DNA of 64,000 nucleotides from Alistipes ihumii AP11 (GTDB lineage Bacteria > Bacteroidota > Bacteroidia > Bacteroidales > Rikenellaceae). The translations under genes and the position numbers were made by a program. Location of the stretch: contig NZ_CP102294.1 of assembly GCF_025144665.1 (NCBI RefSeq), forward strand, positions 1-64,000. Reading direction: 5' to 3'. How positions within the stretch are numbered: the stretch's first letter is position 1; every line of letters begins with the position of its first letter. Of the stretch, positions 3,079-61,400 are shown one piece after another. Under the pieces are notes generated by a model, which had not been told where the DNA came from, ran no database searches, and saw only the letters and a program-made list of their open reading frames with translations.

Positions 3079-3330
3079 ATGACCAGAAAAGAATTGAAGC
3101 GGAAACTTGAAAAGTCAGGACGTTTAAGTCGTTATTTTTAGATGGTTCCCTTCGTTCAGATTGTGGCATTTTATTGAGAAATTATTCTGTATGGGAATAT
3201 TTCCATATGGACGAAAGGGGAAATCGGACGCCTTTAAATTATTTACTTCGGCAGGAAAAGCCTATGATTATTATAAAAATGCGTTAGATTCTTGCAACGT
3301 TTTTCAGACGGCATTAAACAAACGCCCAAG
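3079..3330 (+). pseudogene. Frameshifted paralogue of the preceding small gene
   Basis: Three consecutive frames each retain part of the upstream gene. Frame 1 from the ATG at 3079 reads MTRKELKRKLEKSGRL and stops at 3139-3141. Frame 3 from about 3138 reads LDGSLRSD, then RNYSVWEYFHMDERGNR. A third frame from about 3230 reads FKLFTSAGKAYDYYKNALDS, matching MRFFHSEEEAYDFIYQDALS of the intact copy. Order and spacing match the intact gene at 2639-2893, so this is a tandem duplicate broken by at least two indels. Function unknown. Confidence 0.65.
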
Positions 3331-3463
3331 TAGTTTGCGGCCGAGCGATCTTCGGAGAGCCGGATTTCCCCTGATATGGCCTGCCCGAAGTTTCCGGATC
3401 GTCGCCTGGTTGTGAAATTTCCATGTTTGCCGGGCCGAGTTGTTAAATTCGGGGCGGGGCGCA

Positions 3464-3493
3464 TTGTTTTTTCTCTTTTTTGTTATACATTTG
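3464..3493 (+). promoter_or_regulatory. Promoter of the aromatic amino acid operon
   Basis: TTG at 3464-3466, a 19-base spacer, then TAcaTTTG at 3486-3493. This is a near-ideal Bacteroidota promoter. Transcription would start near 3500, giving a leader of about 190 nt before pheA. That leader contains the attenuator peptide and terminator described next. Confidence 0.75.
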
Positions 3494-3540
3494 CCGTGTC
3501 GAACAGAAACTGTAGAACGTTTAATCCGTTACGAGGAACG

Positions 3541-3621
3541 ATGAATCAGCTTTCGCCTTTTTTTGGTTATTATTTTTACTTCTACTTTACCAAAAGCGGA
3601 CTGGGATCGCGTTGCCTTTAG
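3541..3621 (+). CDS. Phe/Tyr-rich leader peptide of the aromatic operon (attenuator peptide)
   Basis: A 26-residue reading frame (MNQLSPFFGYYFYFYFTKSG, then LGSRCL) between the operon promoter and pheA. Residues 7-16 are FFGYYFYFYF: five Phe and four Tyr in ten residues, with only one Gly between. The operon downstream makes exactly these two amino acids, so this is the classical layout of a transcription-attenuation leader peptide. The Phe/Tyr codons span 3559-3588. A ribosome stalled there would leave the antiterminator arm (3603-3609) free. A ribosome that reached the stop codon (3619-3621) would cover it. No known gene symbol is assigned. Confidence 0.85.
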   Translation: MNQLSPFFGYYFYFYFTKSGLGSRCL

Positions 3622-3656
3622 CGAACGAATCGAACGATGAAAAGATAGACGATCCC
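3603..3656 (+). promoter_or_regulatory. Antiterminator helix of the Phe/Tyr attenuator
   Basis: GGGATCG at 3603-3609 is perfectly complementary to CGATCCC at 3650-3656. The second arm overlaps the 5' arm of the terminator (3652-3660), so the two helices exclude each other. The first arm lies within the last codons of the leader peptide and is masked when the ribosome finishes translating it. This is seen directly in the sequence; the regulatory outcome is inferred. Confidence 0.75.
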
Positions 3657-3685
3657 GGTCCTTGCAAGGTCCGGGATTTTTTTTT
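3652..3685 (+). terminator. Rho-independent terminator/attenuator upstream of pheA
   Basis: ATCCCGG (3652-3658) pairs with CCGGGAT (3671-3677). The stem continues inward past a U-U mismatch with CC/GG around a six-base loop. A run of nine T (3677-3685) follows. It ends only 3 bases before the pheA ATG, so it can only work as a conditional attenuator. Confidence 0.85.
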
Positions 3686-3688
3686 GAG

Positions 3689-4558
3689 ATGAAGATGACA
3701 AGCCAGAACGAATGGACGGAGCCGGAAACGGCGGGCGGCGTGCCTTTGCGCGTCGCCATTCAGGGCTACGAAGGTAGTTTCCATCATATCGTCGCGCGTC
3801 GCTTTCTGGGCGAGCGGGCGGAAATCGTTCCCTGCGATACGTTCCGCGAAGTGGCCCGGCAGGTCGAGAGCGGCGGAGCCGAGTACGGTATCATGGCGAT
3901 CGAGAACTCGATCGCGGGAAGTATTCTGCCCAATCTGGGTATTCTGCATAACAGCCGTCTTCAGGTGACCGGGGAGTATTACCTGCATATCCGGCAGAAC
4001 CTGATGGCGCTGCCCGGGGTCGGGCTCGAGGGAATCGAGGAGGTGCACTCACACCCGATGGCGCTGCTGCAGTGCGTCGATTTTCTCGATACGCATCGCT
4101 GGCGTCTGGTCGAGACCGAGGATACGGCCCTCAGCGCCCGGCGCATCGCCGAGCGGGGCATCCGCAATGCGGCCGCCATAGCCGGCGATTTGGCCGCCGA
4201 GCTTTTCGGGCTCGAAATCGTCGCGGCGGACATCCACTCGATCCGTAATAACTACACGCGTTTTTTGGTGCTTCGTCCCGACCACCAGCCGATCGACGAG
4301 CGCTCGGACAAGGCTTCGCTCTGCTTCAAGACCGACCATCGTCATGGCTCGCTGATACGCGTACTGCGCGAAATGGAGGACTCGACGATCAATATGACCA
4401 AGCTGCAGTCCTCGCCGATTCCGAGCGAGCCGTGGCACTATATGTTTCATGTCGACATGGAGTTCGCCTGCATGGACGACTATAACCGCGTGATCGAGCG
4501 GATGCGGTCGGTCACCAGCGAGTTGCACGTGTACGGCGTGTACCGCAAAGGACAATGA
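3689..4558 (+). CDS. pheA: Prephenate dehydratase
   Basis: 289 residues from the ATG at 3689; an ATG at 3695 is also possible, and an upstream TTG inside the terminator loop is rejected. It converts prephenate to phenylpyruvate. The substrate-binding domain begins VAIQGYEGSFHH (the family GxxGSFSH-like motif) and has EYGIMAIENSIAGS. The NNYTRFLVL segment carries the catalytic TRF motif. A C-terminal ACT-type domain (SLIRVLREME..., about 205-289) would bind Phe. There is no chorismate mutase domain here; that activity is fused to the DAHP synthase at the end of the operon. It is the first structural gene after the Phe/Tyr attenuator and overlaps the next gene by ATGA. Confidence 0.95.
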   Translation: MKMTSQNEWTEPETAGGVPLRVAIQGYEGSFHHIVARRFLGERAEIVPCDTFREVARQVESGGAEYGIMAIENSIAGSILPNLGILHNSRLQVTGEYYLHIRQNLMALPGVGLEGIEEVHSHPMALLQCVDFLDTHRWRLVETEDTALSARRIAERGIRNAAAIAGDLAAELFGLEIVAADIHSIRNNYTRFLVLRPDHQPIDERSDKASLCFKTDHRHGSLIRVLREMEDSTINMTKLQSSPIPSEPWHYMFHVDMEFACMDDYNRVIERMRSVTSELHVYGVYRKGQ

Positions 4559-5754
4559 GAATGATTGAAAAACGACAAGAGATGAAACCGATCGAAATGA
4601 AATTGGCCCGGAGACTCGGCGGAGTGGGGGAGTACTATTTCTCGAAAAAGCTGCGCGAAATCGACCGGATGCGTGCCTCGGGCCGTCAGATCATCAATTT
4701 GGGTATCGGCAGTCCCGACAGGCCGCCCCATCCGGACGTGATCGGAACGCTGGCCGCCGAGGCCGCCAAGCCCGGCAATCACGGCTATCAGCCTTACAAG
4801 GGCGCGGCCGTGCTGCGCGAGGCGTTCGCGCTTTGGTATAAGGAGCGCTACGGCGTTGCGCTCGATCCGGAGGGCGAGATTCTTCCGCTGATCGGGTCGA
4901 AAGAGGGCGTGATGCACGTCTGTATGACCTATCTCGACGAAGGCGACCGTGTGCTGGTGCCCAATCCCGGCTATCCGACCTACCGTTCGGCGGTGACGAT
5001 CGCCGGGGGCGTCTGCGTTGATTACGTGCTGCGCGAGGACGGCGGGTGGATGCCCGATTTCGACGAAATCGAGCGCGGCGGTCTGCAAGGCGTCAAGATG
5101 ATGATCGTCAACTATCCGCACATGCCGACCGGAGCCGCCCCGAAGGAGGGCCTGTTCCGCCGTCTGGTCGATTTCGCCCGCCGGCACGGCATCCTGCTGC
5201 TGCACGACAATCCGTACAGCTTTCTGCGCAACGACCGTCCGGAGAGCCTGCTGGCCACGCCCGGAGCGACGGAAGTGGCGCTCGAGCTCAATTCGCTGAG
5301 CAAAAGTCACTGCATGGCGGGCTGGAGAATCGGGATGATCGGCGGAGCCCGCGAGCGCATCGACGAGATCATCCGTTTCAAGAGTAACATGGACTCGGGC
5401 ATGTTCTATCCGCTGCAGGCTGCTGCCGCGAAAGCCCTGTCGCTGGGCGACGACTGGTATCGGGAGCTCAATGCGCTGTACCGCCGCCGCGAGGCCAAGG
5501 CTTACGAGATACTCGACGCGGTCGGCTGCACCTACGATCCCGTTCAGGCGGGGCTGTTCGTTTGGGGACGGCTCCCCGAGGGAGCCGGAGACTGCTATGA
5601 GTTTTCGGACAGGGTATTGAACGGCTGCGGCGTGTTCCTGACGCCCGGCGGCATTTTCGGTTCGGAGGGCGACCGTTACATCCGCATCAGCCTCTGCGCA
5701 ACGGAGGAAGTGCTGCAACGCGCGGCCGACCAAATAAAAGGAATGGTATTATGA
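4555..5754 (+). CDS. PLP-dependent aminotransferase of the aromatic operon
   Basis: 399 residues, fold-type I aminotransferase of the aspartate/LL-DAP type. Visible landmarks: the N-terminal INLGIGSPDRPPHP, the PNPGYPTY segment, VNYPHMPTG (usual form NYPNNPTG), DNPYSFLRND, and the PLP Schiff-base lysine in SLSKSHCMAGWRIG. The C-terminal part ends RYIRISLCATEE. Its place between pheA and tyrA, with ATGA overlaps on both sides, indicates it transaminates phenylpyruvate and 4-hydroxyphenylpyruvate (or prephenate); the exact substrate is inferred from context only. The H in YPHMPTG where most relatives have N is worth noting. Confidence 0.9.
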   Translation: MRMIEKRQEMKPIEMKLARRLGGVGEYYFSKKLREIDRMRASGRQIINLGIGSPDRPPHPDVIGTLAAEAAKPGNHGYQPYKGAAVLREAFALWYKERYGVALDPEGEILPLIGSKEGVMHVCMTYLDEGDRVLVPNPGYPTYRSAVTIAGGVCVDYVLREDGGWMPDFDEIERGGLQGVKMMIVNYPHMPTGAAPKEGLFRRLVDFARRHGILLLHDNPYSFLRNDRPESLLATPGATEVALELNSLSKSHCMAGWRIGMIGGARERIDEIIRFKSNMDSGMFYPLQAAAAKALSLGDDWYRELNALYRRREAKAYEILDAVGCTYDPVQAGLFVWGRLPEGAGDCYEFSDRVLNGCGVFLTPGGIFGSEGDRYIRISLCATEEVLQRAADQIKGMVL

Positions 5755-6590
5755 AAGCGGCCATCGTAGGCGTCGGGCTGATCGGAGGATCGTTTGCTCT
5801 GACGCTCAAGGATAACGGAATTTGCGACGAGGTGATCGGAGTCGACAATTCCGAGCGAAACCGGGCCAAGGCGCTCGAACTGGGGCTCGTCGACCGGACG
5901 GCATCGCTGGCCGAGGCTGTCGCCGGGGCCGATCTGGTGGTGCTGGCTACGCCGGTAGATTCTATTCCGCTGCTGGCCGTCAAGGTGCTCAATCAGGTCG
6001 ATCGGCAGGTCGTTATCGACATGGGCTCGACCAAGCAGGAACTGTGCGAGGTGATCGCGCAGCACCCGCGCCGGGGCCGCTTCGTAGCGACGCATCCGAT
6101 GTGGGGAACCGAGTACAGCGGTCCCGAGGCGGCCGAGCACGACGCTTTCAGGGGCCGCACGGTCGTCTTCTGCGACCGCGAGCTGAGCGATCCGGACGCC
6201 GTGGAGTTCGTCGAGCGGGTCTATGAGCGGATAGGCATGCCGATCAAGTACATGAGCGCCGAGGAGCAGGACACCCATACGGCTTATGTGAGCCATATAT
6301 CGCACATTACGTCGTTCGCGCTCGCGCTGACCGTGCTCGAGAAGGAGCGCGAGGAGGAGCATATTTTCGATCTGGCCGGAGGCGGCTTCGAGAGCACGGT
6401 CCGTCTGGCCAAGAGCTCGCCCGAGACTTGGGTTCCGATCTTCATGCAGAACAAGTATAACGTGCTCGACGTGCTGCGGGAGCATATCCACCAGTTGCAG
6501 ATTTTCCGGCGCATGCTCGAGCGTGACGATACGGAAGGGCTGCGAACGATGATGCAGCGCGCCAACCGGATCAGGAAGATATTGAAATAG
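5751..6590 (+). CDS. tyrA: Prephenate dehydrogenase
   Basis: 279 residues, a stand-alone TyrA without mutase or ACT fusion. It oxidatively decarboxylates prephenate to 4-hydroxyphenylpyruvate. The N-terminus is a Rossmann NAD(P) site, VGVGLIGGSFAL. VVLATPVDSI, DMGSTKQ and the ATHPMWGTEYSGP segment with its active-site His are present. The HTAYVSHISHITSFALAL helix matches the family dimer domain. It overlaps the aminotransferase stop by ATGA. A 159-base gap separates it from the DAHP synthase gene. Confidence 0.94.
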   Translation: MKAAIVGVGLIGGSFALTLKDNGICDEVIGVDNSERNRAKALELGLVDRTASLAEAVAGADLVVLATPVDSIPLLAVKVLNQVDRQVVIDMGSTKQELCEVIAQHPRRGRFVATHPMWGTEYSGPEAAEHDAFRGRTVVFCDRELSDPDAVEFVERVYERIGMPIKYMSAEEQDTHTAYVSHISHITSFALALTVLEKEREEEHIFDLAGGGFESTVRLAKSSPETWVPIFMQNKYNVLDVLREHIHQLQIFRRMLERDDTEGLRTMMQRANRIRKILK

Positions 6591-6614
6591 CCGGCCGGGG
6601 ATTCCGAGAGGGGA

Positions 6615-6638
6615 GGCCCGGGCGTCGGCGTCCGGGCC
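6615..6638 (+). other. GC-rich hairpin between tyrA and the DAHP synthase gene
   Basis: GGCCCGG (6615-6621) pairs with CCGGGCC (6632-6638), and the stem continues inward with GCG/CGT around TCGG. There is no U-tract after it. It may be an mRNA stabilising or processing structure within the operon. The rest of the 159-base gap shows nothing recognisable. Confidence 0.45.
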
Positions 6639-6749
6639 GGAACGGAACGAAAGCCGCCGGTCGGGATCGCTTCTCGGCGGAGCGGGGCCTTCCCGTTTCG
6701 TCCGGGCTCCGGCAAGGCAAATGAGAAACAACGCGAAAAGAACAACTAT

Positions 6750-7811
6750 ATGAAACCGTTTGACATCAAGGCGAAACGCCCGCTCATTATCTCGGGCCCG
6801 TGCAGTGCGGAAACCGAGGAACAAACTTTGGAGACCTGCCGGCGGATTGCCGACACGGGTCTCGTCGACGTGCTGAGGGCCGGCATTTGGAAGCCGCGTA
6901 CGAAGCCCGGTTCGTTCGAAGGCGTGGGCCTCAAGGGGCTCGCGTGGATGAGCCGTGCCCGCGAGATTACGGGCTTGCCGATCGGCACCGAGGTAGCTAC
7001 GTCCAAGCATGTAGAGGCGGCGCTGGAATTCGGCGTGGACGTGATTTGGGTCGGCGCGCGCACGACGGTCAATCCGTTCAGCGTGCAGGATATAGCCGAT
7101 GCGCTGAAAGGTTCGGACGTGACCGTGCTGATCAAGAATCCGATGAATCCCGACATCGAGCTGTGGGGCGGCGCCGTCGCGCGGATGCGTAACGCCGGCA
7201 TCGAGAAGCTCGGGCTGATTCACCGCGGCTTTTCGGCCTACGGAGCCTCGCTGTACCGCAACAATCCGATGTGGCATCTGGCCATCGAGATGCGGAGCCG
7301 TTTCCCCGAGCTGCCGATGATCTGCGATCCGTCGCATATCTGCGGCTGCCGCGACTATCTGCTCGACGTGGCGCAGAAGAGCGCCGATCTGGATTACGAC
7401 GGGCTGATCGTCGAAAGCCATATCTGTCCCGACAAGGCGTGGAGCGACGCTTCGCAACAACTGACGCCCGACGGGCTCGAGGCGTTGCTTCGGAGCATCG
7501 TATGGCGCCGCTCGACGACCGACAGCCCTTCCTATCAGCAGGCCTTGGCGAAGCTGCGCGCGCAAATCGATCAGATCGACGCCGAGACTTTCGAGCTGCT
7601 CGGCAAGCGGATGCGCGTGGCCGAGGAGATCGGCCGCGTGAAGAAGGAGAACAACGTGGCGATCCTGCAGGGAGGCCGCTGGAGCAGCATCGTCGACCGG
7701 GTCGTCTCGCAGGCTCCGAAGCTGGGGGTCAGCGAAGAGTTTCTCAAGACCGTTCTCGAAGCCATTCATCTCGAGAGCATCAACCTGCAGAACCGGATCA
7801 TGAACCGGTAA
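6750..7811 (+). CDS. Bifunctional 3-deoxy-7-phosphoheptulonate synthase / chorismate mutase
   Basis: 353 residues. Residues 1-255 are a class I-beta (KDO8P-like) DAHP synthase: IISGPCSAET, GIWKPRTKPGSFEG, the metal/substrate segments IHRGFSAYG and CDPSHICG, and VESHICPDKAWSDA. Residues about 268-350 are an AroQ-type chorismate mutase: LAKLRAQIDQIDAETFELLGKRM, then AEEIGRVKKENN. The fusion joins the first step of the shikimate pathway to the branch step toward Phe and Tyr. It explains why neither pheA nor tyrA carries a mutase domain. In such fusions the mutase domain commonly serves as the prephenate/chorismate sensor for feedback. It is the last gene of the operon; a terminator follows. Confidence 0.94.
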   Translation: MKPFDIKAKRPLIISGPCSAETEEQTLETCRRIADTGLVDVLRAGIWKPRTKPGSFEGVGLKGLAWMSRAREITGLPIGTEVATSKHVEAALEFGVDVIWVGARTTVNPFSVQDIADALKGSDVTVLIKNPMNPDIELWGGAVARMRNAGIEKLGLIHRGFSAYGASLYRNNPMWHLAIEMRSRFPELPMICDPSHICGCRDYLLDVAQKSADLDYDGLIVESHICPDKAWSDASQQLTPDGLEALLRSIVWRRSTTDSPSYQQALAKLRAQIDQIDAETFELLGKRMRVAEEIGRVKKENNVAILQGGRWSSIVDRVVSQAPKLGVSEEFLKTVLEAIHLESINLQNRIMNR

Positions 7812-61325: not shown

Positions 61326-61400
61326 CGGGGTGTAGCGCAGCCCGGTTAGCGCACCTGCTTTGGGAGCAGGGGGTCCCAGGTTCGAATCCTGGTACCCCGA
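61326..61400 (+). tRNA. tRNA-Pro (anticodon TGG)
   Basis: 75 nt without an encoded CCA. Acceptor stem CGGGGTG/TACCCCG with one G-T pair; D arm GCGCAGCCCGGTTAGCGC; anticodon arm CCTGC-TTTGGGA-GCAGG with anticodon TGG; T arm CCAGG-TTCGAAT-CCTGG; discriminator A. It serves as the integration target of the adjacent element, whose insertion left it intact. Confidence 0.96.

Follow-up and report, generated by a model that had tools for sequence, protein, structure and literature searches.

In E. coli, pheA is preceded by pheL, coding for a Phe-rich leader peptide with Phe codons only, and by a switch between an antiterminator and a terminator. A putative attenuator was listed in 2005 before the genes pheA>hisHb>aroAIbeta-aroQ>tyrA of Bacteroides thetaiotaomicron (PMC1173090, Table 7), and short ORFs resembling leader peptides have been described in the same species (PMC7366714). 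In 2021, clues of leader-peptide attenuation at amino acid operons were reported, together with a conserved element 5' of pheA across Flavobacteriaceae (PMC9723704). As shown in Table 1, the window, that is, the whole stretch of 64,000 nucleotides analysed here, carries upstream of the operon pheA-aminotransferase-tyrA-DAHP synthase/chorismate mutase (3689-7811) a leader which very probably acts as a ribosome-mediated (leader-peptide) transcription attenuator, controlling the combined operon in response to a shortage of charged tRNA-Phe or tRNA-Tyr. The hallmarks of such devices are found together: a leader ORF before the first gene, codons for the amino acids made by the operon, an intrinsic terminator, and a mutually exclusive antiterminator with a 5' arm that a ribosome would cover or leave free. 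As read from the domain matches, the products of the operon serve the synthesis of both Phe and Tyr, the aminotransferase being presumably that of the pathway. The start of pheA is uncertain, because in protein comparison the homology to relatives begins only near residue 20, and the ATG at 3695 may be used instead of that at 3689.

Table 1. Positions of the leader elements and operon genes in the window
Feature	Position	Strand	Remarks
Likely promoter	3464-3493	+	TTG 3464-3466, 19-nt spacer, TACATTTG 3486-3493
Leader ORF	3541-3621	+	26 codons plus TAG (3619-3621), peptide MNQLSPFFGYYFYFYFTKSGLGSRCL
Predicted sensor run FFGYYFYFYF	3559-3588	+	ten codons: 5 Phe, 4 Tyr, 1 Gly
Arm 2, 5' strand of predicted antiterminator	3598-3609	+	GGACTGGGATCG, within the last leader codons
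Arm 3, common to predicted antiterminator and terminator	3650-3661	+	CGATCCCGGTCC
Predicted intrinsic terminator	3652-3685	+	hairpin 3652-3677, nine T 3677-3685
pheA, prephenate dehydratase	3689-4558	+	PF00800, E 5.7e-56
Class I/II aminotransferase	4555-5754	+	domain match; role inferred
tyrA, prephenate dehydrogenase	5751-6590	+	NF006307, 349.9 bits (cut-off 295)
DAHP synthase fused to chorismate mutase	6750-7811	+	PF00793 and PF01817

The sequence-only reading had described at this place a consensus Bacteroidota promoter, a leader of 26 codons containing FFGYYFYFYF, and a terminator whose nine T precede the pheA ATG. Each of these could be located again: the TTG and TACATTTG elements are both present, the latter fitting what we take to be the Bacteroidota -7 motif, TAnnTTTG; the run lies within the leader ORF, with Phe or Tyr in nine of its ten codons; and the T-run ends shortly before the ATG at 3689. 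A scan of the window under comparable rules gave no other F/Y-rich short ATG ORF with a hairpin and a T-run on either strand. A simple sigma-70/terminator scan picked up neither the promoter of the pheA leader nor its terminator. The same reading had paired 3603-3609 with 3650-3656. This pairing exists, but its 7 bp are only part of a longer predicted antiterminator helix of 12 bp between 3598-3609 and 3650-3661, in which 11 pairs are Watson-Crick and one is G-U. The energies computed for a free arm 2 were -20.6 kcal/mol for the antiterminator versus -16.6 kcal/mol for the terminator, and when arm 2 was treated as covered the terminator alone could form. Arm 2 begins 9 nt past the final Phe codon of the run. 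For the leader as a whole, the minimum free energy was not unusual (z -0.63).

From this arrangement we infer the transcription start, the translation of the leader, the stalling, the termination and the response to Phe and Tyr. RNA polymerase would start near 3500, and a ribosome would translate the leader behind it. With both amino acids in ample supply, the ribosome should reach the stop codon and cover arm 2, so that arm 3 would pair with arm 4, the terminator would form, and transcription would end at about 3685. When Phe or Tyr is short, the ribosome would stall within the run and leave arm 2 exposed; the 12-bp helix of arms 2 and 3 could then form ahead of the synthesis of arm 4, allowing read-through into pheA. 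Since a stall is possible at every Phe or Tyr codon, the sensor would behave as an OR gate. A different function of the leader would be chiefly to boost pheA translation by reinitiation, as proposed at leader genes in the accessible text of PMC4833913, or to act as a peptide in trans, with termination being constitutive or leaky. We regard this as extremely unlikely, since the terminator lies between leader and gene, since the distance from leader stop to pheA is 67 nt and not the 11-14 bp at which stop-to-gene distances peak in Bacteroidetes according to the same text (PMC4833913), and since the leader peptide outside the F/Y run looks, by eye, poorly conserved beyond close relatives.

The conservation of the putative attenuator was followed in the DNA upstream of pheA in relatives. 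The pheA protein search gave a match in 42 of 61 relatives and in 139 of 295 genomes of the order, and from a search of named genome contigs the best 80 of 123 matches were used. Upstream DNA was taken from the loci of all three pheA searches and from 80 stretches, 110 of the 139 order-level genomes being read. The resulting 217 loci, minus 3 that were too short and 27 duplicates, left 187 non-redundant regions, counts over which are not independent because the sequences are related. A region was scored as positive if an ATG or GTG ORF 10-45 codons long, in which F or Y made up 6 or more of 10 residues, was followed by a hairpin and a T-run. Leader plus terminator were found in 155/187 regions, in 0/187 reverse strands and in 0/187 sequences of each of five dinucleotide shuffles. 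Leaders with or without a terminator were found in 166 regions, compared with 5/187 reverse strands and 2-4/187 per shuffle. In 107 of the 155 regions, the motif TANNTTTG was present 110 to 15 nt 5' of the first leader, with 10.4 such regions expected from mononucleotide shuffles.

The remaining 32 regions comprised 11 with a leader and no detected terminator and 21 with neither. Five of the former were inspected (L008, L065, L127, L128 and L170, in addition to the duplicate L009), and all showed a strong hairpin followed by a T-tract that is interrupted or poor. Among the 21, L017, L027 and L055 carry a terminator and a weaker F/Y leader, and in four others that were inspected (L154, L157, L160 and L178) a leader was absent. 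At L157 and L160, a promoter-like TATTTTTG motif ends just 14 and 7 nt, respectively, 5' of a pheA ATG, as would fit a loss of the attenuator at these two loci.

The codon content of 175 leaders was then compared. In their densest ten residues, 1380 F/Y codons were counted in frame, while the two alternative frames gave 455 and 432, and the true frame was the best for F/Y in 175/175 leaders, a result that is partly built in because the leaders were selected by F/Y density; a fairer test is the comparison of leader counts with those on reverse strands and in shuffles. Phe outnumbers Tyr in these ten residues (811 F versus 569 Y), and 6/175 leaders contain one Tyr or none, as might be expected if the device in practice sensed a single amino acid, Phe, like pheL of E. 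coli, and the Tyr codons were tolerated filler. This possibility is very unlikely, since 169/175 leaders contain at least two Phe plus at least two Tyr codons, and since tyrA is itself in the operon: the aminotransferase, tyrA and DAHP synthase/chorismate mutase genes follow pheA in the same order in 66/80 named loci. Of the other 14, several end with the contig, two have a different order and the others have no match to at least one of the genes. A Trp codon also occurs in 52/175 leaders. In a group of Flavobacteriaceae-type leaders (L188, L191, L193-L196, L200, L201, L211 and L214), Trp directly precedes the run (FWN or FWT, then the F/Y run), and, as it is kept there, Trp might also be sensed in these leaders.

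Next, the pairing of the two arms was examined across relatives. The 3' part of the leader and the 5' arm of the terminator gave a mean duplex energy of -17.0 kcal/mol, compared with -9.2 for shuffled sequences and -10.8 for mismatched partners taken from other loci. The antiterminator duplex ranked in the best 5% against its own shuffles in 152/175 leaders, and did so against mismatched partners in 90/175. Within Rikenellaceae, where 30 of the 36 leader records were covered (L028, L172-L175 and L177 were excluded from the alignment), 239/270 positions of arm 2 and arm 3 pair, while 500 permutations gave a mean of 216 and a maximum of 228, the register being free to vary in real and permuted partners alike. 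Compensatory changes were seen from A-U to U-A at pairs 3 and 9, and at pair 5 from U-G to A-U or G-C. The covariation score of the terminator stem on a plain MAFFT alignment (A1) was reached by 0/500 shuffles. On the same alignment the antiterminator was 61.3% paired versus 59.5% in the shuffles (27/500), and a slide by one column scored higher; this weak signal is probably due to loop lengths that shift the register. A conserved protector hairpin between arm 1 and arm 2 was not supported, being in the best 5% of shuffles in 33/175 leaders. The run, the antiterminator and the terminator are thus kept in relatives, with compensatory changes, and the loss of the Phe/Tyr run or of the alternative helices that would have spoken against the sequence-only reading was not encountered.

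The positions of these elements also agree with a control by ribosomes. Arm 2, defined as the best duplex found and looked for only downstream of the run, starts at a median of 10 nt (IQR 8-12) 3' of the last F/Y codon in the 175 leaders. With assumed footprint sizes, a ribosome at the stop codon would cover at least part of arm 2 in 174/175 leaders, and one stalled at the last F/Y codon would leave all of arm 2 free in 126/175, as would one stalled at the third-last in 172/175. These counts fit the earlier proposal that a stalled ribosome frees the arm and a ribosome at the stop covers it. When arm 2 was excluded from folding, the terminator formed in 175/175 leaders. With arm 2 free, the antiterminator took the minimum free energy at equilibrium in just 53/175, and therefore the predicted switch must be kinetic in most relatives. 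In computed folds, arm 3 was mostly paired with arm 2 before arm 4 emerged in 171/175 leaders, although this count is favoured by the choice of arm 2 as the best duplex, and the 100% of pairing between arms 2 and 3 follows from that choice by construction. Taken together, sequence and comparison show the elements of the leader, their conservation, the two mutually exclusive helices and their geometry.

The low share of leaders in which the antiterminator wins at equilibrium would also allow for a stabilising factor, and U is abundant in the F/Y run. It could thus be argued that the terminator is controlled by something other than the ribosome (a metabolite-binding aptamer, a T-box or an RNA-binding protein), with the run being incidental or a U-rich RNA element. 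We consider this very unlikely. The run is in frame within a short ORF in 166/187 regions, against the few cases on reverse strands and in shuffles, the F/Y codons are concentrated in one frame (keeping in mind the selection of leaders for F/Y density), and the spacing of arm 2 behind the run is narrow; the leader counts and the frame count also make a U-rich element as such unlikely. Furthermore, none of the Rfam leader families searched (Bacteroid-trp, T-box, riboswitches and others) reached the gathering score in the window or in 13 loci. Matches below threshold at 3300-3800 (MicC, Virus_CITE_1, ohsC and NsiR1) were far below their gathering scores. A tRNA gene at 61326-61400 is the sole Rfam match at gathering score within the window.

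The range of the predicted ribosome-controlled device was assessed in a phylum-wide sample of 198 genomes, 172 of them with a pheA match. Among the 31 genomes read out of 44 matching genomes of the same class, the leader was present in 26 and leader plus terminator in 20, whereas the device was found in 1 of the 39 genomes read from other classes; the sample is not random, because the genomes read had the better matches. L286, among the 30 top loci of this sample, belongs to the same class, is without the device, and was counted with that class. These numbers suggest that the device belongs to the class Bacteroidia.

The window locus is a single attenuator unit. In 20/187 regions, two F/Y leaders, each with its own terminator, were found in tandem (L029, L031-L033, L037-L039, L045, L046, L058, L064, L071, L075, L091, L109, L180, L183, L187, L189 and L198), spanning nine families of the order plus Hymenobacter and Saprospirales loci. 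The unit's own antiterminator ranked in the best 5% for 16/20 upstream and 18/20 downstream units. The TANNTTTG motif occurred between the tandem units in 0/20 and before the first unit in only 10/20. We speculate, with the chances for and against about balanced, that Bacteroidia inherited one Phe-and-Tyr attenuator which was repeatedly doubled for the same signal, the need for two escapes sharpening the response, and that, given also the His leaders before hisG described below, leader-peptide attenuation is a main mode of amino acid control in these bacteria.

Other leaders were searched for in this genome and in relatives. On the minus strand of the same genome (G000:C1:2397665-2397721, L255), a candidate His leader, MILNSRFHHHHHRSRKHR, is followed by a GC-rich hairpin and a T-run before hisG. 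A His-rich leader was present upstream of hisG in 27/30 loci, in none of the reverse strands and in 1/300 mononucleotide shuffles. Upstream of hisG at L349 there are two His-rich leader candidates, possibly a tandem his attenuator. A genome-wide pattern search for Phe/Tyr runs (at most one mismatch) gave no excess, with 57 sites versus 63 in a reversed-pattern control, and none of five sites inspected was clearly a second attenuator. In this genome, inspection by eye of the DNA before four aspartokinase genes, ilvD and two leuA-like genes gave no obvious leader, and a model search for trpE gave no match.

If the proposed mechanism holds, it would tune Phe and Tyr synthesis to supply in a large bacterial group of the gut and the environment, by a sensor reading both amino acids at once and encoded in a conserved regulatory RNA without an Rfam match. 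The single and tandem attenuators would form a natural series in which the effect of a doubled switch is measurable. The sequence-only reading had held an attenuator of this type in Bacteroidota to be notable. This claim is weaker than stated, since PMC1173090 and PMC9723704 precede it; the kind of device is already known. As far as we found, the mixed sensor, the geometry, the range and the tandem copies are new, and searches of open-licence PMC papers turned up neither a mixed Phe/Tyr sensor nor tandem leaders for the same signal.

Several described systems can be set beside this locus. The Bacteroid-trp RNA (RF01692), which we take to be a Trp attenuator, matched neither the window nor the 13 loci. 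It is listed as a cis-regulatory motif of Bacteroidetes in Table 1 of PMC2864571. The entry for B. thetaiotaomicron (PMC1173090) resembles the window in its predicted attenuator and its same four functions, but it is a database prediction with tyrA in the last position, and the accessible text gives no leader peptide, codons, conservation or mechanism for it. The 5' elements of pheA and hisG in Flavobacterium psychrophilum (PMC9723704) share with our locus a structured element 5' of pheA without an Rfam match, whereas the accessible text of that paper gives no leader sequence, role of Tyr or range beyond Flavobacteriaceae. Like the tandem pheA leaders, the tandem attenuators of Salmonella mgtCBR have two leader ORFs in one leader RNA; however, according to the accessible text those respond to two signals, ATP and proline, while both tandem pheA leaders carry the same Phe/Tyr codons (PMC3641672). 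Finally, the locus shares with pheL-pheA of E. coli a Phe-rich leader and a predicted switch upstream of pheA, and it differs from it in its mixed Phe and Tyr codons, in the four-gene operon serving both amino acids and in belonging to another phylum.
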